The notes beneath the pieces are model-generated. The model searched no databases. It was given only the letters and a program-made list of their open reading frames with translations, and was not told where the DNA came from. The position numbers were made by a program, and so were the translations under genes. DNA of 64,000 nucleotides from Candidatus Melainabacteria bacterium (GTDB taxonomy: Bacteria > Cyanobacteriota > Vampirovibrionia > 2-02-FULL-35-15): positions 124,001 through 188,000 of the forward strand of contig JAHFBF010000001.1 of assembly GCA_023250195.1 (NCBI GenBank). Direction: 5' to 3'. This document shows, piece after piece, positions 17,625 through 31,372 of the stretch (within the stretch, counting starts at the first letter, position 1; each line of letters opens with the position of its first letter).

Positions 17625-18005
17625 ATGAAACCAGAAACTGAAAATTGGTTAAAGATTGCAAGGTATGACTTAAAAGCTGCAAGAGGAAATTACCAAATAG
17701 AATTATATTTGAAAGTCTTTGAAAACTGTCATGCAGCCTTAGAGAAACTTTTAAAAGGAATAATTAACGAGAAAGAAGAGCCCCCAAAAATCCATAATCT
17801 ATTGAAACTATGCAGTAAAGCATTAATTGATGATTTACAAAAAGATGTTAAGAGCATATTAGACGAGTTAAATAATGTTTATATATCAACAAGATATCCA
17901 AAAAATTTTGATGAGCTAAATAGGTACCTGTCAAAAGAAAAAACTGAAGAAATACTTCAGCAAACCGAAAGGATTTTCAAATGGTTAGAAAAGAAAATAA
18001 TCTAG
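17625..18005 (+). CDS. HEPN domain protein (putative toxin of a HEPN/MNT pair)
   Basis: 126 residues, all-alpha, with the pattern of the HEPN family: NWLKIARYDLKAAR at the start, CHAALEKLLKGII in helix 2, KIHNLLKL, and TRYPKN near residue 98. HEPN proteins paired with minimal nucleotidyltransferases form toxin-antitoxin modules in which HEPN is usually a ribonuclease, or the target of NMPylation by its partner. The gene overlaps its partner by 25 nt. I see no strict R-x4-6-H motif, so ribonuclease activity is uncertain; this subgroup (with RYP) is often of unknown activity. The pair lies between two copies of a broken gene tail. Confidence 0.85.
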   Translation: MKPETENWLKIARYDLKAARGNYQIELYLKVFENCHAALEKLLKGIINEKEEPPKIHNLLKLCSKALIDDLQKDVKSILDELNNVYISTRYPKNFDELNRYLSKEKTEEILQQTERIFKWLEKKII

Positions 18006-18331
18006 ATTTAGAAAAAAAACTGAAATATTACATAGATGCATTAACAAGTGTAATCAAAGTAGATAAAATTATACTTTTTGGATCACAAGCTAAAGGGAAT
18101 CCACATGAATACAGTGATATTGATATTGCAGTAATATCACCTGAGCTCGATCCTAACGAACCAGAATTAAAACATTTACGTTATATAAAAGACAAAGCCG
18201 ATTTATTTGATCCTGATCTACAATTAGTAGCTTTCCCAACTAAAAAATTTGAAACTGAAACTGGTGTAGAAGAACGATTCATCCGTGAAATCAAAAAAAC
18301 AGGGAAAGTAATTTATCAAAAGCCTTCATAA
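17981..18331 (+). CDS. Minimal nucleotidyltransferase (MNT) domain protein, antitoxin-like
   Basis: 116 residues. The DNA polymerase beta-type nucleotidyltransferase motif is complete: LFGSQAKGNPHEYSDIDIAV gives GS...SDIDIAV with both metal-binding Asp residues. A third acidic residue may be in DPDLQLVAF. MNT antitoxins neutralise the partner HEPN protein, in known systems by adding AMP to it. Translation is probably coupled to the upstream gene through the 25-nt overlap; the start could be slightly later, as no strong ribosome-binding site is visible. Confidence 0.88.
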   Translation: MVRKENNLDLEKKLKYYIDALTSVIKVDKIILFGSQAKGNPHEYSDIDIAVISPELDPNEPELKHLRYIKDKADLFDPDLQLVAFPTKKFETETGVEERFIREIKKTGKVIYQKPS

Positions 18332-19808: not shown

Positions 19809-19909
19809 GATCAAATGAGAATTTTGACTGAGAAAAAGCAAAGTAATTTTTTAACTTCAAAATTAGGTAAACTAAATGTTTAAAAAATTACGGAGCGTTT
19901 ATAAAGAAT

Positions 19910-19988
19910 TGTCCGAGAAGGGACTTGAACCCTTACGGTTGCCCATACGCCCCTTAAACGTACGCGTCTGCCATTCCGCCACTCGGAC
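19910..19988 (-). tRNA. tRNA-Leu, anticodon AAG by my folding
   Basis: On the minus strand GTCCGAG pairs with CTCGGAC as acceptor stem, with A as discriminator and no encoded CCA. The D arm (GCGGAATGGCAGACGC), the long class-II variable arm (TGGGCAACCGT) and the T arm (AAGGG TTCAAGT CCCTT) are all present. The anticodon arm is TACGT-TTAAGGG-GCGTA, which places AAG at positions 34-36 (codon CUU, or CUU/CUC/CUA if A34 is deaminated to inosine). Most bacteria use GAG here, so the A34 is unusual. Total 79 nt. Confidence 0.93.
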
Positions 19989-19994
19989 AATACT

Positions 19995-20129: not shown

Positions 20130-21731
20130 ATGAGCCAACAAATGCAAATTTATGACACTACACTCCGTGACGGTTCACAAATGGAAGGGATTTCTTTATC
20201 TGTTGATGACAAATTAAAAATTACAAAATTACTGGATGAGCTTGGGGTTGATTTTGTAGAAGGCGGGTGGCCTGGGGCAAATCCAAAAGACAGTGAATTC
20301 TTTAAAAAAGTAAATGAACTTAATCTAAAACATACAAAAATAGTTGCCTTTGGAAGTACAAGAAGAGCAAACTCAAAAGCTCAAAGCGATGCTATCTTAA
20401 ATGCACTGATTCAGGCAAATACTGAATACATAACCATTGTCGGCAAAAGCTGGGATATGCATGTAGATATCGCTTTAAATGTCAGCAAAGAAGAAAACTT
20501 AAACATGATTCAGGAAAGCATTGAACATTTAAAGATAAAAAAGAAAAAAGTTTTTTTTGATGCAGAGCATTATTTTGATAGTTTCAAATCAAATTCTGAA
20601 TATGCACTGAGTGTCATTAAATGCGCTCACAATGCCGGTGCTGATGGAATTATTCTTTGTGACACAAATGGTGGTGCGCTGACAGAAGAAATCAAAGAAG
20701 GTGTTTTAAAAGCAAAAGAAACTCTTGGAGAAAAAGCGTTAATTGGTATTCATGCCCATAATGACTGTGAGTTAGCCGTTGCAAATTCCATTACTGCTTA
20801 TGAAGCCGGAGCCAGGCAAATACAGGGAACCATAAATGGAATTGGCGAGAGATGTGGGAATGCAAATCTTGTTTCAATCATTGCAAATCTCGAGCTCAAA
20901 TACAAACAGAAGATTCTCCCGGGAAATAACCTGACAAAATTAACTACAATTTCAAGGCAAATTTCGGATATTTTAAATTTAAATCCAAATGATCATCAGC
21001 CTTATGTAGGCTTTAATGCATTTGCCCATAAAGGCGGATTACATGCCAGTGCTGTAAAAAAAGATTCAAAAACTTATGAACATGTTAATCCTGAAGAAGT
21101 TGGAAATACAAACAGAATTGTAGTAAGTGAACAAGCAGGAGTTTCAAATGTTTTATCTGTAGCAGAAAAATGTGGAATAGATCTTGGCGCCAGTCCAAAA
21201 GAAACTGCAGCACAACTCTTAAAAAACATAAAAGAACTTGAACATAAAGGTTATCAGTTTGAAGGTGCAAGTGCCAGTTTTGTGCTTTTGCTTTTAGAGC
21301 TTTTAAATCAAAGACCAAAGTTTTTCGAGCTTGTTGATTATAGAGTTATTACCAGCTCAAAACAATTAGCTGAAGCAACAGTAAGAATAAAAGTAAAAGG
21401 CGAGGTAATTCACACTGCCAGCTTAGGAGTAGGTCCTGGGAATGCCATAGACAATGCCCTTAGAAAAGCATTAACTCATTATTACCCTGCATTAAAAGAG
21501 TTTCAACTAATTGATTTTAAAGTAAGAATTCTAGACAGTCACGACGGCTCAGCAGCAAAAACAAGAGTTCATGTAGAAAGCTCAGATGGGAATATTACAT
21601 GGGATACAGTGGGTGTCAGTGCAAATATTATTGATGCTACCTGGCTTGCAATTACAGATAGTATCGAGTATGGATTATGGGTTAAATCTAAAGAAAATAT
21701 AAAGACAGAAACCACATCAAAAATAATCTGA
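20130..21731 (+). CDS. cimA: (R)-citramalate synthase
   Basis: Condenses acetyl-CoA with pyruvate to citramalate, giving a threonine-independent route to 2-oxobutyrate and isoleucine. 533 residues. Motifs: YDTTLRDGSQMEGISLSVDDKLKI near the N-terminus, DFVEGGWPGANPKD (diagnostic for the CimA/TIM44-like class rather than LeuA), the metal-binding HAHNDCELAVANS, GTINGIGERCGNANL, HKGGLHASAV, and a C-terminal LeuA-dimer regulatory domain (about residues 400-520) that binds isoleucine in homologues. No strong ribosome-binding site is visible before the ATG. It supplies the same pathway as the acetolactate synthase at 48344-50164. Confidence 0.94.
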   Translation: MSQQMQIYDTTLRDGSQMEGISLSVDDKLKITKLLDELGVDFVEGGWPGANPKDSEFFKKVNELNLKHTKIVAFGSTRRANSKAQSDAILNALIQANTEYITIVGKSWDMHVDIALNVSKEENLNMIQESIEHLKIKKKKVFFDAEHYFDSFKSNSEYALSVIKCAHNAGADGIILCDTNGGALTEEIKEGVLKAKETLGEKALIGIHAHNDCELAVANSITAYEAGARQIQGTINGIGERCGNANLVSIIANLELKYKQKILPGNNLTKLTTISRQISDILNLNPNDHQPYVGFNAFAHKGGLHASAVKKDSKTYEHVNPEEVGNTNRIVVSEQAGVSNVLSVAEKCGIDLGASPKETAAQLLKNIKELEHKGYQFEGASASFVLLLLELLNQRPKFFELVDYRVITSSKQLAEATVRIKVKGEVIHTASLGVGPGNAIDNALRKALTHYYPALKEFQLIDFKVRILDSHDGSAAKTRVHVESSDGNITWDTVGVSANIIDATWLAITDSIEYGLWVKSKENIKTETTSKII

Positions 21732-21841: not shown

Positions 21842-22981
21842 ATGGTAGCAGTAGGAAGCACATTAATTGCTAACAGAGTTTTGGGTATAGATGGCGGTGG
21901 AACAAAGCTAACAGCCTATGTAGCAAGACCGGACGAAGTAGGAGGGGAACCCGTTCAAAGATTTTCATTTAGATGTGCTGACTATAGAAGCTTAGCAGAG
22001 ATTATCAGAGAAGTTAAACTAAAATCAGGTCACAAAATTACAGATGCATGCATTGCAATAGCTGGTCCTGTATCAAATGGCCGTGTAATAGTATCAAAAC
22101 TAGATTGGACTGAAATAACAGAAGGAGATTTAGCTGATCAACTCGGCATCGATAAAAGCAACGTAACACTTGTAAACGATATAGTAGGTCAAGGTGCATC
22201 ATTAAGCGTACTCCCTATGAGCCCTTCACATGTTTATCACTTTACCAGAACAGGGCCTTTTAATGGTTTTAGAAGCCAGGGTAAATGGAGTGTTATAGCT
22301 CCCGGAACAGGACTTGGAAAAAGTGATGTGTTTTTTGGCAATGATGGCAAAGTAAGAATTTCTGATTCAGAAGGTGGAGGTATTAGATTTGGCCCTGATC
22401 CTTCAGATGAAGATCAATTTAAATTACTTGCTTATATACTGCGAAAAAAGAGAGCAGAAGCTGCAACACAATCTAATGGACCAAGAAGGAAAAACCCAGA
22501 TTTCATTAGTCAGGATGATGTATTAAAAGGGGCTGCACTAAAAACTATGTATGATTTTTTTGTTTCAGAATATCCAGACGAAGGCGAGCCGTTATGGCTT
22601 TATGAAGCTTTCCAGAAAGAAGGAGATCCAAACTCAGTGATTACCAAAGCAGCACTAGGAGAATTTGAGGGAAAGACTAGCACTCACTGCACCCTAGCAT
22701 ACATGTTGTATTGTTCTATACTTGGTTCCGTTATAGGAGACGAAGCTGTAAGAGTTAAAGGTGGTGTTGCAATATGCGGCGGAATATTTCCTAAAATTGC
22801 AGGTGGTATAGAGAAAACACAATTTATGAAAGCATACCTAGGCCGAAATGAATTTAGTGTAGAAGAGTTAGTTTCAAAGAAGCCAGTAGTTGGGATTGTA
22901 ACTAGTGACGGTGGTGTTATTGGTGCTACTGAAATGGCTAAGCCAATAAATAAAGAGACATTTGAGGTAATAAGTTCATAG
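21842..22981 (+). CDS. glk: Glucokinase
   Basis: ATP-dependent glucose phosphorylation. 379 residues; a little longer than the usual 320-350. AAGGAG precedes the ATG at 21842. Motifs: phosphate-1 GIDGGGTKLTAYV, IAIAGPVSNGRV, the NDIVGQG substrate Asp region, APGTGLGKSDVFF, the SEGGGIRFGP block (family SEGGH replaced by SEGGG), and the C-terminal CGGIFPKIAGG. The GGG in place of GGH at the zinc-type His is normal for this non-ROK (PF02685-like) family. Extra residues around 205-225 (charged, RRKNPDF) form an insertion. It overlaps the end of dprA by 6 nt (convergent). Confidence 0.9.
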   Translation: MVAVGSTLIANRVLGIDGGGTKLTAYVARPDEVGGEPVQRFSFRCADYRSLAEIIREVKLKSGHKITDACIAIAGPVSNGRVIVSKLDWTEITEGDLADQLGIDKSNVTLVNDIVGQGASLSVLPMSPSHVYHFTRTGPFNGFRSQGKWSVIAPGTGLGKSDVFFGNDGKVRISDSEGGGIRFGPDPSDEDQFKLLAYILRKKRAEAATQSNGPRRKNPDFISQDDVLKGAALKTMYDFFVSEYPDEGEPLWLYEAFQKEGDPNSVITKAALGEFEGKTSTHCTLAYMLYCSILGSVIGDEAVRVKGGVAICGGIFPKIAGGIEKTQFMKAYLGRNEFSVEELVSKKPVVGIVTSDGGVIGATEMAKPINKETFEVISS

Positions 22982-24082
22982 CCTCAAATACTTGCCTTCC
23001 GAGCTTTTTTCAATAATGCTCTTTAGCTCAAGCATAGATAAAAGCTTTAGAAGATCTTGAATTTCCATCTCTAATTCATAAGATAATACATCAAAGTTTT
23101 TAGGTTCAGAGGATAAAGCTGAATAAACCTGTTTTTCTTTTTCACTTAAACCACTAACCTTTTCATTTTTATCCTCTAGATCAAATTTAATTTGCCTGCT
23201 CTCCCCAATTTTTTCTAAAATATCATCAACAGAAGTTAGTAGTTCAGCCACTTTTGACTTGATTAAAATATTTGGACCGTTTGACTGAATAGAATCAATT
23301 GGCCCTGGCAGTGCAAAAAGTGGTTTATCCTGCTTAATAGCAAAACGAGCAGTTATCATGGCTCCACTTTGTAAGTCTCCTTCTATAACTATTACTGCAT
23401 CACTTAAAGCACTAATAATCCTGTTACGCTGTGGGAAATTCCATGGTGAAGCCTGTGTTTCAGGAATATATTCAGATAAAATTAATCCTCCATTTGTAGT
23501 AATGTCATGGGCTAATGGTTTATTTTCAGATGGAAAAACATAATCTACCCCTGTCCCAACCACTGCAGCTGTTTTCCCGGATTTTACTGCTCCAAGGTGA
23601 GCACCAGTATCAATCCCCGATGCTAAGCCACTTACAATAACTATATTTTGCTCTGATAAAAGAGAAGATAGTTTTTTTGTAATATTAATTCCATAATTTG
23701 TAGCAGATCTGGTTCCAACAATTGCAATGTGTTTTAAACTGTTTAAATTTGACAAATTGCCTTTGTAAAATAATCCAAGTGGTGAATCTGAAATGTTTTT
23801 TAGTTTTTGCGGATATTCTTTTTCACAATAGGCAATGAATTTAGTTTCCTTTTCTTTTAAAGAGTTTTTAAGTTCATCTATAACTGTCCTTTTCACTTCA
23901 GTCTTTAATCTATTAATTTTTTCATGCTCTTCATCTGCAATTTGCGGTTTAAAATTATTTTTATTTGAAGTGAATATTTCTATAAAGTTTTCACAGGAAT
24001 TATAAAGCTTTTTTATCAAAGTCTTTTCAGGCTGAAACTTTACTGCAAATGTTAAAGCTAAAAACAAATCTTTTATATCCAT
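22976..24082 (-). CDS. dprA: DNA processing protein DprA
   Basis: Loads RecA on incoming single-stranded DNA in natural transformation. 368 residues: a divergent N-terminal part, a Rossmann-like DprA domain with HIAIVGTRSATNYG, VSGLASGIDTGAH, VVGTGVDYVFPSENK, SEYIPETQASPWNFPQRNRII and EGDLQSGAMITARFA, and a C-terminal winged-helix segment (from about 310). It is the last of three minus-strand genes after the sigma factor (82-nt gap). Presence of DprA suggests competence, but no com genes are in the window. Confidence 0.95.
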   Translation of the reverse strand: MDIKDLFLALTFAVKFQPEKTLIKKLYNSCENFIEIFTSNKNNFKPQIADEEHEKINRLKTEVKRTVIDELKNSLKEKETKFIAYCEKEYPQKLKNISDSPLGLFYKGNLSNLNSLKHIAIVGTRSATNYGINITKKLSSLLSEQNIVIVSGLASGIDTGAHLGAVKSGKTAAVVGTGVDYVFPSENKPLAHDITTNGGLILSEYIPETQASPWNFPQRNRIISALSDAVIVIEGDLQSGAMITARFAIKQDKPLFALPGPIDSIQSNGPNILIKSKVAELLTSVDDILEKIGESRQIKFDLEDKNEKVSGLSEKEKQVYSALSSEPKNFDVLSYELEMEIQDLLKLLSMLELKSIIEKSSEGKYLRL

Positions 24083-27697: not shown

Positions 27698-30600
27698 CTA
27701 CGGAGAGACTCTGATAACCGTTAAATTGTTATTTACACCGCTTGAAAGTAAAAACGGTCCTGCCACAGCTAATTTATTTACATTTAATGGTTTTGTTAGG
27801 AAAGCTTCACTACCATTTGATTTTACAACTGTAAGTTTATTCTTTGTAAATGTAGTAATTACTGCCTGTTTATTATTATCGATTAAACTACCTGCACTTA
27901 GAGCTACAATGCCGCCTTCTCCAAGTGCCAGATAAGCTGTCCCATCAATCACTAAAAGATCTTCTATTTTATTTTTAATTTTCAAATCTTCATTCAGCGG
28001 TATATCAGTAAGATTATTCAAATCAAACAAGAAAACACTTCTCTCACCGGCACATATTAAAACATCAGTAGTTTTTCCGTTTACCGAGAACTTTCCCGCA
28101 TAATCAATCTTTGTAAACTTTGTACTGCCTGTATCAATTGTCTGAACCGGCTCATTTAGATTAACGAGATTTCTTATAGAAATTGTTTTTGCATCATAAG
28201 CTACTACAAAAGGACCTGTTTTATCTCCCAGCTTTTTAACCACCGTAATATGCTGAACATTTTTAGTCACGCTTGAATTTTCAACCCTTGGCTGAGCATC
28301 TGTAATCGGGAAAACAAGATCAACTCCATTTGTCCCAGTCGATACAACTGCTGCAGTCTGTCCATTTATCTGAGTTAATTCCAATTCAAAGCCCTCACCT
28401 GATAGACTTGCGGATGTTTCCACTTCACCGCTTTCAGAATCTAAAAGCAGTATCATTGCCCCTTTCAACACAACAATTTTTGTCTGCTTTGTTTCACCAC
28501 TGCCAAACTCAAAAAGTTTCAGATCTTTAATTCCAGAAGTACTGCTAATCATAGTCAGAGGTCCTGTTATATTTTTATTGTCTTCAGTAAAATTAACTGT
28601 TCTTACTCCGTCACTTGAAGCTAAAACAGCAATAGGATCTATTAATGGATCTCCTCCACTTGCAAATCCACCAATAGCAGCAGGTTCTACAGAAAGAGGA
28701 GATTTAAAATTAGCACCAGAATTATCTACAAAAGTCCGCGGTATTGCTGTTAACAAATCAACTCCGAATATTGGTCTTATTGTAAACAATCCAACCGAAG
28801 TACTGTTATCAATGGAGCTTTGTAAATTTATTGGGACGTAAATAGGAAAGAGCAGAGAACTTGATGAAAGCATAAGATCATCAAGCGACACAGTAAATGG
28901 ATCCTGTCTTATTGCTCCGGAAAGTTCCACGCCATTATTCAAAGACAGCCCTGCAAGTATTTCTGCATCAATTGGGGTATTAGAAAAAGTAGGAGTTCCA
29001 CTTATTTCAAGAGGAATTGAAACTCCTAGTATATTTGGAAAGTTGATTGAAAAATTTATATCTGTTTTACCCGGCTTAACTGCATTTATTTTAAATTGTG
29101 TAAGTAAATTCCCTGTTACTGAAGAAATTCCTGCCCCACCGAGGTTTGCAATGCTGGAATCTGAAATAGTTGCAGTAATCTGTGTATTACTTGGAACCGA
29201 AGAAAATTCAGTGGTACCATCCTGTGATAAAACTTTGACTTGCAATTGCTGCAAATTATTACCCTCTTCAGTGTTTAAAGAGATTCCCTGTGCAGGAACG
29301 GTAGATAAAAACGGCTTTGAACTATCGGAAACATTTACTTTAATTTTTGCCGGGATAAAATTTGCCGTACTTTCAGCAGGTAAAATATTTATTTCAAATT
29401 CTCCCTGTACAGTTGAATCTTTCCGGGTAACAGTTATATTTTCACCAACTTGAAATAAAGAAGGGCTTACAATTATTGATCCGTTTGAATCATTGACCTG
29501 CGCCTTTAATAAAACCACCTGATTGTTTGTAGATAGAACTTTTGTTGCTGCTATGAAATTATTTGAACTTGACAGATTAATCGTCTGAGGCTGAACCTGC
29601 AAAGAAGGAACAACACTAAACTTATCTATTCCAACTAAAAACTCACTTACATAACTGCCTTGAATTACTGCTTCCGGAGTTAATAGTATTTGTCTTCCTT
29701 CAATACCTGAATTTGACTCAATTTGAAGGAATTCGCTTATTTTGGATGGTAATTTTCCTGAACCATTTGTAAACCCTCCGGTTAAATAAATTGCTGAGTT
29801 TACAAATTTATTAGCATCTGAAGTAGACAGAAAGCCCTGCGTTTTATTTTTTGGCGTAACCAAAACTACTGTTGGCTGGATTCTACCTGTTGAAGTGTCA
29901 AGAACATTCTTCTGAGCAGCCTTTAAAACACTGCCCGTAGATGTTAAAAAATCAGGTGTAAAAATCTCAATTTTTGAAACTGGTGTATTTATAAAATTTT
30001 CAGTGTTTGCTCCCTTCTTAATATTCAAGCCGCCAATAACTGCTACATCACCATTTGGAAGAAGGATTGTCTGGAACAAAAACCGTGGTATCTGAAGTGT
30101 TAGATTTCCACCACTGGATTTGTCTGTAACTAAATTAAAAGATTCATTACTATTGTCATAATATTGAAGAGTAGCCAGAGATAATCCTCTGGCTGAACTA
30201 TCTGCTGTCCCTGCAAAAAGATCGGTATTTCCACCTGCAATCAAAACCTGTCCATTTGTTAAAAGAGTTGCACTATGTCCACCAGCAGCTTTATTTAATG
30301 CTCCAACCCCTTTTATGGTAAATGCTTTAGTATCAATAAGCTCTGCAGCATCAGTAGCAGGTCCAAGTCCAAATTCATTTGTTTTTTCATTTGTAAAACC
30401 TCCTGCAATTAAAATATTTCCGTTTTGCAGTGTTGTAGCCGTATGTAAAAGTCTTGAGGTAGAAAGAGAAATAGCAGAAGGAGAAACAGTTCTTGTAACT
30501 GGATCAAAAATTTCAATACTGTTTAAAGCACCAAGATTAGTTTTATTAATGCGACCCTGCCCACCTATAATTAATACTCTGCCGTCCGGCAGCAAATTTG

Positions 30601-31372
30601 CACTGTGAAAAATCCTTGCTTTTTTCAGTTTAGCTTTTTTACTGGTAAGTAAAGTACTTACTGTCTGATTTGTCCCAATACTAATTTCAACAATTTCAAT
30701 ACTATTTTCAAGCGAACCTCCGGCAGAAAACCCACCTGTAAGAAGGATTTGTTCAACAGGAGTTGAAATCATCCCGACAGAAGAATTACTTATTCCTAAA
30801 TATGTAGCCGTGTGCTGGCTCCTTGAAATCTGCAGCCTGGCTTTTTTCGAATTATCCGGTGTTTTTAAAAATTCGCTTTTTCCGGTTTCAGGATTAAATA
30901 CTTCAAGCGAACTTAATGGCTCATCTGCAAGCCCTTTGCTTCCACCAATCAGGACAACTCTTCCATCTGAAATTTTTGTTGCCGTATTCCCTGCTCTTGC
31001 CTCACGTAAGTCAGGCAGTAAAGAATTTCTCAAATTGCCATTCGGGGAAGATCTAAAACTTATTGTTTTTGAGATTGTGGTACTTCCAGCTCTAATTTGA
31101 ATCGTTTTTTCAGAGTTAGAAGCAGCCGGTGGAAATATTGCAATGGATTTTGTATTTGAATCTCTATATGATCTTGGTTGATCGGTAAATTCTCCAATAC
31201 TTACATCTATACCGGTAATTAAGTTTAGATCTGAAACATCTATAACTATTGGCTCGCCACTTGAATTTGGAACGATGAAATCTACCGCAAATGAGGAAGA
31301 AATAGAGAAATAAAGAAATAAAGAAGTAAGGAAAACTTTAATTAATAATTTTTTTATATTTGATAGGTTCAT
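27698..31372 (-). CDS. Large exported Kelch-repeat protein
   Basis: 1,224 residues with a signal peptide (LLIKVFLTSLFLYFSISSSFA). Residues about 120-560 hold seven Kelch-type blades; the diagnostic Gly-Gly appears in ISDGRVVLIGGSKG, QILLTGGFSAGG, LPDGRVLIIGGQGR, LQNGNILIAGGFTN, LTNGQVLIAGGNTD, LPNGDVAVIGGLN and YLTGGFTNGSG, so a complete seven-bladed propeller is likely. The middle (about 590-880) looks like Ig-like/BACON-type beta domains, and the C-terminal 300 residues contain further propeller-like repeats (VVLKGAMILLLDSESG, GTAYLALGEGGIVAL). No membrane anchor or sorting signal is visible at the end (LTVIRVSP). Probably secreted or periplasmic and protein- or sugar-binding; no catalytic site recognised. 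Confidence 0.85.
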   Translation of the reverse strand: MNLSNIKKLLIKVFLTSLFLYFSISSSFAVDFIVPNSSGEPIVIDVSDLNLITGIDVSIGEFTDQPRSYRDSNTKSIAIFPPAASNSEKTIQIRAGSTTISKTISFRSSPNGNLRNSLLPDLREARAGNTATKISDGRVVLIGGSKGLADEPLSSLEVFNPETGKSEFLKTPDNSKKARLQISRSQHTATYLGISNSSVGMISTPVEQILLTGGFSAGGSLENSIEIVEISIGTNQTVSTLLTSKKAKLKKARIFHSANLLPDGRVLIIGGQGRINKTNLGALNSIEIFDPVTRTVSPSAISLSTSRLLHTATTLQNGNILIAGGFTNEKTNEFGLGPATDAAELIDTKAFTIKGVGALNKAAGGHSATLLTNGQVLIAGGNTDLFAGTADSSARGLSLATLQYYDNSNESFNLVTDKSSGGNLTLQIPRFLFQTILLPNGDVAVIGGLNIKKGANTENFINTPVSKIEIFTPDFLTSTGSVLKAAQKNVLDTSTGRIQPTVVLVTPKNKTQGFLSTSDANKFVNSAIYLTGGFTNGSGKLPSKISEFLQIESNSGIEGRQILLTPEAVIQGSYVSEFLVGIDKFSVVPSLQVQPQTINLSSSNNFIAATKVLSTNNQVVLLKAQVNDSNGSIIVSPSLFQVGENITVTRKDSTVQGEFEINILPAESTANFIPAKIKVNVSDSSKPFLSTVPAQGISLNTEEGNNLQQLQVKVLSQDGTTEFSSVPSNTQITATISDSSIANLGGAGISSVTGNLLTQFKINAVKPGKTDINFSINFPNILGVSIPLEISGTPTFSNTPIDAEILAGLSLNNGVELSGAIRQDPFTVSLDDLMLSSSSLLFPIYVPINLQSSIDNSTSVGLFTIRPIFGVDLLTAIPRTFVDNSGANFKSPLSVEPAAIGGFASGGDPLIDPIAVLASSDGVRTVNFTEDNKNITGPLTMISSTSGIKDLKLFEFGSGETKQTKIVVLKGAMILLLDSESGEVETSASLSGEGFELELTQINGQTAAVVSTGTNGVDLVFPITDAQPRVENSSVTKNVQHITVVKKLGDKTGPFVVAYDAKTISIRNLVNLNEPVQTIDTGSTKFTKIDYAGKFSVNGKTTDVLICAGERSVFLFDLNNLTDIPLNEDLKIKNKIEDLLVIDGTAYLALGEGGIVALSAGSLIDNNKQAVITTFTKNKLTVVKSNGSEAFLTKPLNVNKLAVAGPFLLSSGVNNNLTVIRVSP

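Follow-up and report, generated by a model that had tools for sequence, protein, structure and literature searches.

The window analysed here, a 64,000-nucleotide stretch of a Candidatus Melainabacteria genome, encodes a tRNA-Leu with an AAG anticodon (Table 1). We think it likely that this is a functional tRNA-Leu whose A34 arose by a change in place, and that TadA makes I34 from it, giving a single tRNA that reads both CUU and CUC. Such a tRNA-Leu(IAG) is known from Lactobacillales. The additions here are the lineage, which is probably a non-photosynthetic relative of cyanobacteria, the repeated in-place switching of the anticodon, and the absence of the codon recoding reported for Lactobacillales.

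Table 1. Positions in the window of the tRNA-Leu genes, the anticodon and the two synteny markers
Feature	Position	Strand	Evidence
tRNA-Leu(AAG) gene, 79 nt	19910-19988	minus	Rfam RF00005; ARAGORN: 19909-19989 (tRNA-Leu, anticodon aag)
Anticodon A34 A35 G36	19953-19955	minus	sequence and covariance alignment
Citramalate synthase CimA, head-to-head with tRNA-Leu(AAG), synteny marker	20130-21731	plus	TIGR00977, 696 bits
DprA, second synteny marker	22976-24082	minus	profile match and synteny across the family
tRNA-Leu(CAG), other Leu isoacceptor of the window genome	57475-57558	plus	ARAGORN and cmscan

The initial annotation had proposed this gene without naming a strand; ARAGORN and RF00005 agree on its identity and place it on the minus strand. 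The RF00005 match scores 47.2 bits in E-value mode (E 2.7e-9, gathering score 29) and the locus again scores 47.2 bits in a search of the whole genome. A fast cmscan of the entire window in gathering mode listed tRNA-Leu(CAG) as the sole tRNA. The tRNA-Leu(AAG) gene is absent from that scan and was therefore dropped by its filters.

The sequence and alignment give a cloverleaf with paired stems, A14, G18G19 and the extended variable arm, here 11 nt, that is typical of bacterial tRNA-Leu of the CUN box. The sequence also has A73, as bacterial tRNA-Leu do, a discriminator with a role in leucine identity; CCA is not encoded. The anticodon loop reads U32 U33 A34 A35 G36 G37 G38 (UUAAGGG) above a U31-G39 wobble pair in the anticodon stem, which is common to most G34 relatives among the matches listed. 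The covariance model leaves the anticodon in place, so that A34, first deduced from the TTAAGGG loop, stands and a displaced anticodon does not account for it. An encoded AAG anticodon is a mark of a tRNA-Leu(IAG) of the Lactobacillales type.

The genome of the window comprises 2,213,197 bases in 7 contigs and is 98.93% complete. Scoring 150 of the 198 first-look candidates (48 unscored) gave 42 RF00005 matches above the cut-off. On these loci ARAGORN finds the Leu isoacceptors AAG, UAG, CAG, UAA and CAA, and A34 only in Arg(ACG) and Leu(AAG). A DNA search with the tRNA returned its own locus and one other, which is the Leu(UAG) gene. Leu(GAG) was undetected by the RF00005 and ARAGORN inventory, by the DNA search and by a G34 pattern. 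A GAG tRNA in addition to a defunct AAG locus, the situation that the initial annotation had named as fatal to its reading, is thus not what these genome searches found. The inventory has at least one gap, since no tRNA-Asn gene was found among the 42 tRNAs; perhaps it fell into an assembly gap or is one of the 48 unscored candidates. We also noted a tRNA-Arg(UCG) about 2 kb from tRNA-Arg(ACG) (contig C5, 97426-97498 and 99330-99404). As Arg(CCG) was not found in the inventory, CGN decoding in this genome is also unusual.

Across 146 sampled genomes of the class (Vampirovibrionia), pattern searches, which can miss divergent genes, assigned the A34 form to 11, the G34 form to 95, neither to 40 and both to none. 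Leu(AAG) therefore takes the place of Leu(GAG), as in Lactobacillales, with no genome carrying both by pattern. The A34 form is spread over eight genera in four families. Genomes matching neither pattern may have no CUY-specific Leu tRNA of such form, or a diverged one; many of the 40 belong to a single genus (g12 of family f5) and are 99% complete. Among 386 genomes sampled across the phylum, three match the A34 pattern, which may miss divergent genes; all three are from the window's family, and the sample does not contain the A34 members of the remaining three families.

The two forms alternate among close relatives. The window's genus contributes three genomes to the sample, two of them A34 and the third G34, and another genus (g5) contributes one of each. 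A PolA tree of 38 genomes, including 9 of the 11 with A34, requires seven changes between the A34 and G34 labels. Its well-supported branches taken by themselves still demand six or more changes of the A34 label; the tree comes from a short search, and 9 of its 35 inner branches have weak support. The A34 label is hardly clustered on this tree: as few changes occur in 80 of 500 shuffles. Some of the changes may be reversals, and we infer that the anticodon changed from G to A.

In the window's family, the tRNA is head to head with cimA and close to dprA in all nine other genomes where it was found (3 A34, 6 G34), although the CimA match of one of them (G003) is short (63 residues); a tenth genome matched neither pattern. 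Because A34 and G34 genes both lie beside cimA, the anticodon changed in place. The G34 genes of G001 and G010 share 99% identity with the window gene; the mismatches are position 34 and, in G001, also the last base.

Elsewhere in the window, two small overlapping ORFs lie at 17625-18331, the second of which (17981-18331) resembles the MntA antitoxin of a type VII toxin-antitoxin system below the cut-off (42 of 60 bits). For a 1224-residue ORF on the minus strand (27698-31372), NCBIfam gives no more than a partial match over a short stretch, to a radical copper oxidase.

The A34 form extends well beyond this class. A wide scan of one genome per species (84,980 species) with a narrower A34 pattern matched at least 118 stretches, two of which share one genome, and ARAGORN called tRNA-Leu(AAG) in 117 of 118 among the matches listed. 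By record titles, these include at least 86 Clostridia, at least 17 Caldisericota or Cryosericota, at least 5 Melainabacteria and at least 1 Cyanobacteriota, and among the matches listed also at least 5 other Bacillota (2 Bacilli), 3 unplaced records and 1 doubted Myxococcota. Part of the anticodon stem is fixed in this pattern, which may therefore exclude Lactobacillales. The accessible text of one paper (PMC13249217) places almost all bacterial Leu(AAG) genes in Bacilli and also names Mycoplasma and Prochlorococcus. Our Clostridia and Caldisericota records suggest that this Bacilli-centred view understates the spread. A search of titles and abstracts, with subscription literature mostly outside reach, found none on tRNA-Leu(AAG) in Melainabacteria, Clostridia or Caldisericota. 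With Leu(AAG) genes in several groups, the initial premise that bacteria keep A34 for tRNA-Arg goes too far.

In the family of Clostridium homopropionicum, 91 of 146 sampled genomes match, 26 with A34, 65 with G34 and none with both. The two forms alternate inside this one family, and TadA differs at many sites between the two groups.

A looser phylum-wide pattern, TTAAGG...GGTTCRANTCC, matched at least 369 of the 386 genomes and is useless as a test. At 19 of its loci, in 10 genomes of a family (f37) that we guess to be Prochlorococcus/Synechococcus, ARAGORN called no Leu (10 tRNA-His and 7 tRNA-Ser). These 10 genomes lend no support to the Leu(AAG) published for Prochlorococcus in the accessible text (PMC13249217), with a pattern that may miss the gene.

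The candidate enzyme is encoded. As the initial annotation had recommended, we inspected TadA: the gene (contig C1, 69678-70115) specifies 151 residues with intact active-site motifs HAE and PC..C of the deaminase. Its best solved relative is E. coli TadA (1z3a, E 2.8e-32) and Pfam places it in deaminase families. It scores 139.1 bits, below the curated cut-off of 150 bits of NCBIfam NF008113, a cut-off that is strict for the TadA family, since it is reached in only 4 of the 146 class genomes and in 5 of 14 controls. TadA model matches occur in 143 of the 146 class genomes (E up to 0.001, a few of them weak).

Next to the motif W-R-L we found a possible correlate of specificity. Compared with the 10 other family members, the window genome's TadA has a one-residue deletion directly after W-R-L. 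Just before W-R-L, at residue 70 (window numbering), Asp is present in 5 of 10 A34 genomes of the class and in 0 of 38 others, including 0 of 25 with the G34 pattern; 16 of 300 label shuffles equal this association over all columns (50 loci compared, those of G064 and G049 yielding no protein). Among 28 TadA proteins from genomes behind 30 of the at least 118 wide-scan loci, all A34 and without G34 controls, Asp precedes W-R-L in 17 by script and in 18 with one read by eye. In the Clostridium homopropionicum family the counts are 6 of 26 A34 versus 2 of 52 G34 genomes (p = 0.015, uncorrected for kinship). Many other TadA columns in this family are far more associated with A34; the reason, we think, is that about twelve of the 26 genomes with A34 seem, from their tRNA, to form a single clade. 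Tests of the Asp site on independent pairs had few supported pairs, and the window genome itself has Asn at this position, not Asp. We keep this Asp as no more than a lead, a putative correlate of TadA specificity.

We compared leucine codon use in frames of at least 150 codons from the window and from 60 stretches of 24 other genomes (25 genomes in all, each represented by a sample, in a simple comparison). CUC makes up 67 of 1760 Leu codons in the window (3.8%) and 59 of 1776 in its G34 congener G001 (3.3%). In a second pair of one genus, CUC is 3.0% with A34 (G006) and 3.9% with G34 (G010). CUU and CUC together make up 33.9% versus 32.1% in the first pair and 27.7% versus 27.1% in the second, and UUA is much alike. 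Over the window's family, CUC is equally frequent with A34 (3.0-4.4%, four genomes) and with G34 (3.3-5.2%, six genomes).

Other families differ in level and direction. In family f2, CUC reaches 9.2% in G035 and 16.1% in G122, both with A34, and ranges over 5.4-21.0% in the four G34 genomes compared; UUA is lowest in G122 (7.7%), whose GC3 is high. Family f6 runs opposite to the direction in Lactobacillales: CUC is lower in its two A34 genomes (2.3-2.4%) than in the three with G34 (2.7-7.5%), CUU is below that of each of the three, and UUA is higher (55-59% versus 37-54%). A further family, f8, has no G34 genome for comparison. The shift from UUA to CUU, CUC and UUG reported with the Lactobacillales tRNA-Leu(IAG) was not seen in the 25 genomes sampled.

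Given a real A34, an undetectable GAG gene and an encoded TadA, the alternative framed by the initial annotation, that TadA edits this tRNA or A34 stays unmodified, is the correct one, and the sequence evidence leans to deamination. Editing is favoured because the A34 and G34 forms are mutually exclusive, the TadA motifs are intact and CUC use in the family is unchanged. TadA, the maker of I34 in tRNA-Arg(ACG), would also deaminate A34 of tRNA-Leu, and the resulting tRNA-Leu(IAG) would read CUU and CUC and be able to read CUA, a codon served by Leu(UAG) as well. We infer that the tRNA is transcribed, charged with leucine and deaminated. Were A34 to stay unmodified, the tRNA would read CUU, and CUC would be left to Leu(UAG) with an unmodified or permissive U34. 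The Leu(UAG) gene is present, and having TadA does not guarantee editing of Leu(AAG), because, in excerpts of PMC11472039, the TadA of S. pyogenes edits both tRNA-Leu(AAG) and tRNA-Arg and that of E. coli edits tRNA-Arg only, sparing the S. pyogenes tRNA-Leu(AAG). In addition, the part of PMC8266599 available describes I34 on bacterial Leu(AAG) as rare and certain further bacterial A34 tRNAs as not modified to I34, and in family f6 CUC is less common with A34 than with G34. Two features of the window genome may also weigh against editing: the one-residue deletion in its TadA, and Leu and Arg loops that differ at more positions than in S. pyogenes. Nonetheless, CUC is no less used with A34 in the window's family, the CUC levels of G035 and G122 would, we think, be hard to sustain with unmodified A34, and the tRNA is edited in the bacteria where the accessible accounts examined it (PMC11472039, PMC13249217). 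We therefore regard an unmodified A34 as rather unlikely.

That the locus is a pseudogene, or its A34 a one-base assembly or sequencing error, is very improbable. The covariance score is moderate, the assembly is in 7 contigs and the fast scan missed the gene; against this, the fold is intact, no GAG copy was found that would make the gene dispensable, 10 other class assemblies have the A34 form and so, by the ARAGORN calls, do nearly all wide-scan stretches among the matches listed. Transfer of an A34 gene from elsewhere, for example from Clostridia, where records of this form are frequent, has an even slighter chance of being the origin, because A34 and G34 members share one locus beside cimA and dprA and their genes can differ at little more than position 34. 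Synteny and the recurrence of the A34 form led us to set both of these readings aside.

The tRNA-Leu(IAG) that we favour has known counterparts. I34 on the same tRNA is shown in Streptococcus and reported in Oenococcus oeni, and AAG and GAG genes are exclusive by family in Lactobacillales (PMC11472039 and PMC13249217, as excerpted), which bears out the earlier remark that a few bacteria have expanded their use of inosine. As in the Lactobacillales system (Streptococcus, Lactobacillaceae, Oenococcus), an A34 Leu tRNA stands in for the GAG form without the two being found together, TadA is encoded and the remaining Leu isoacceptors are kept. Unlike there, the phylum is another one and A34 and G34 alternate at one locus among close relatives. 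The leucine recoding proposed for Lactobacillales in the available text (PMC13249217), a rise of CUU and CUC and a fall of UUA, is not seen here.

The substrate comparison also differs. The Leu and Arg anticodon loops of S. pyogenes differ at positions 35 and 37 according to the excerpts of PMC11472039, whereas Leu(AAG) and Arg(ACG) of the window genome differ at four positions (32, 35, 37 and 38). As with the tRNA-Arg(ICG) and TadA of most bacteria, A34 is gene-encoded and TadA is the candidate deaminase, but the anticodon is not that of tRNA-Arg(ICG) and TadA must therefore tolerate A35. The anticodon logic and the codons are those of eukaryotic tRNA-Leu(IAG), which is made by ADAT2/3, a heterodimer with broad substrates (PMC8266599 and PMC11472039, in the parts accessible); the candidate here is a bacterial TadA.

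The window genome and G001, as well as G006 and G010, differ at the wobble base of one gene and are therefore a natural experiment. Such sister pairs can show what TadA needs in order to accept a second substrate. They can also tell whether I34 in tRNA-Leu is near-neutral or is the driver of leucine recoding that it was proposed to be in Lactobacillales. We tentatively put forward, as a possibility on which we would not yet rely, that flips between G34 and A34 are recurrent, occur in place in several phyla and proceed without recoding, and that many TadAs not of the E. coli type accept the AAG arm or readily evolve to accept it. If so, inosine expansion would be frequent and near-neutral instead of driving codon evolution, and in some lineages the specificity gained would be marked by changes in TadA, of which Asp before W-R-L is an example.
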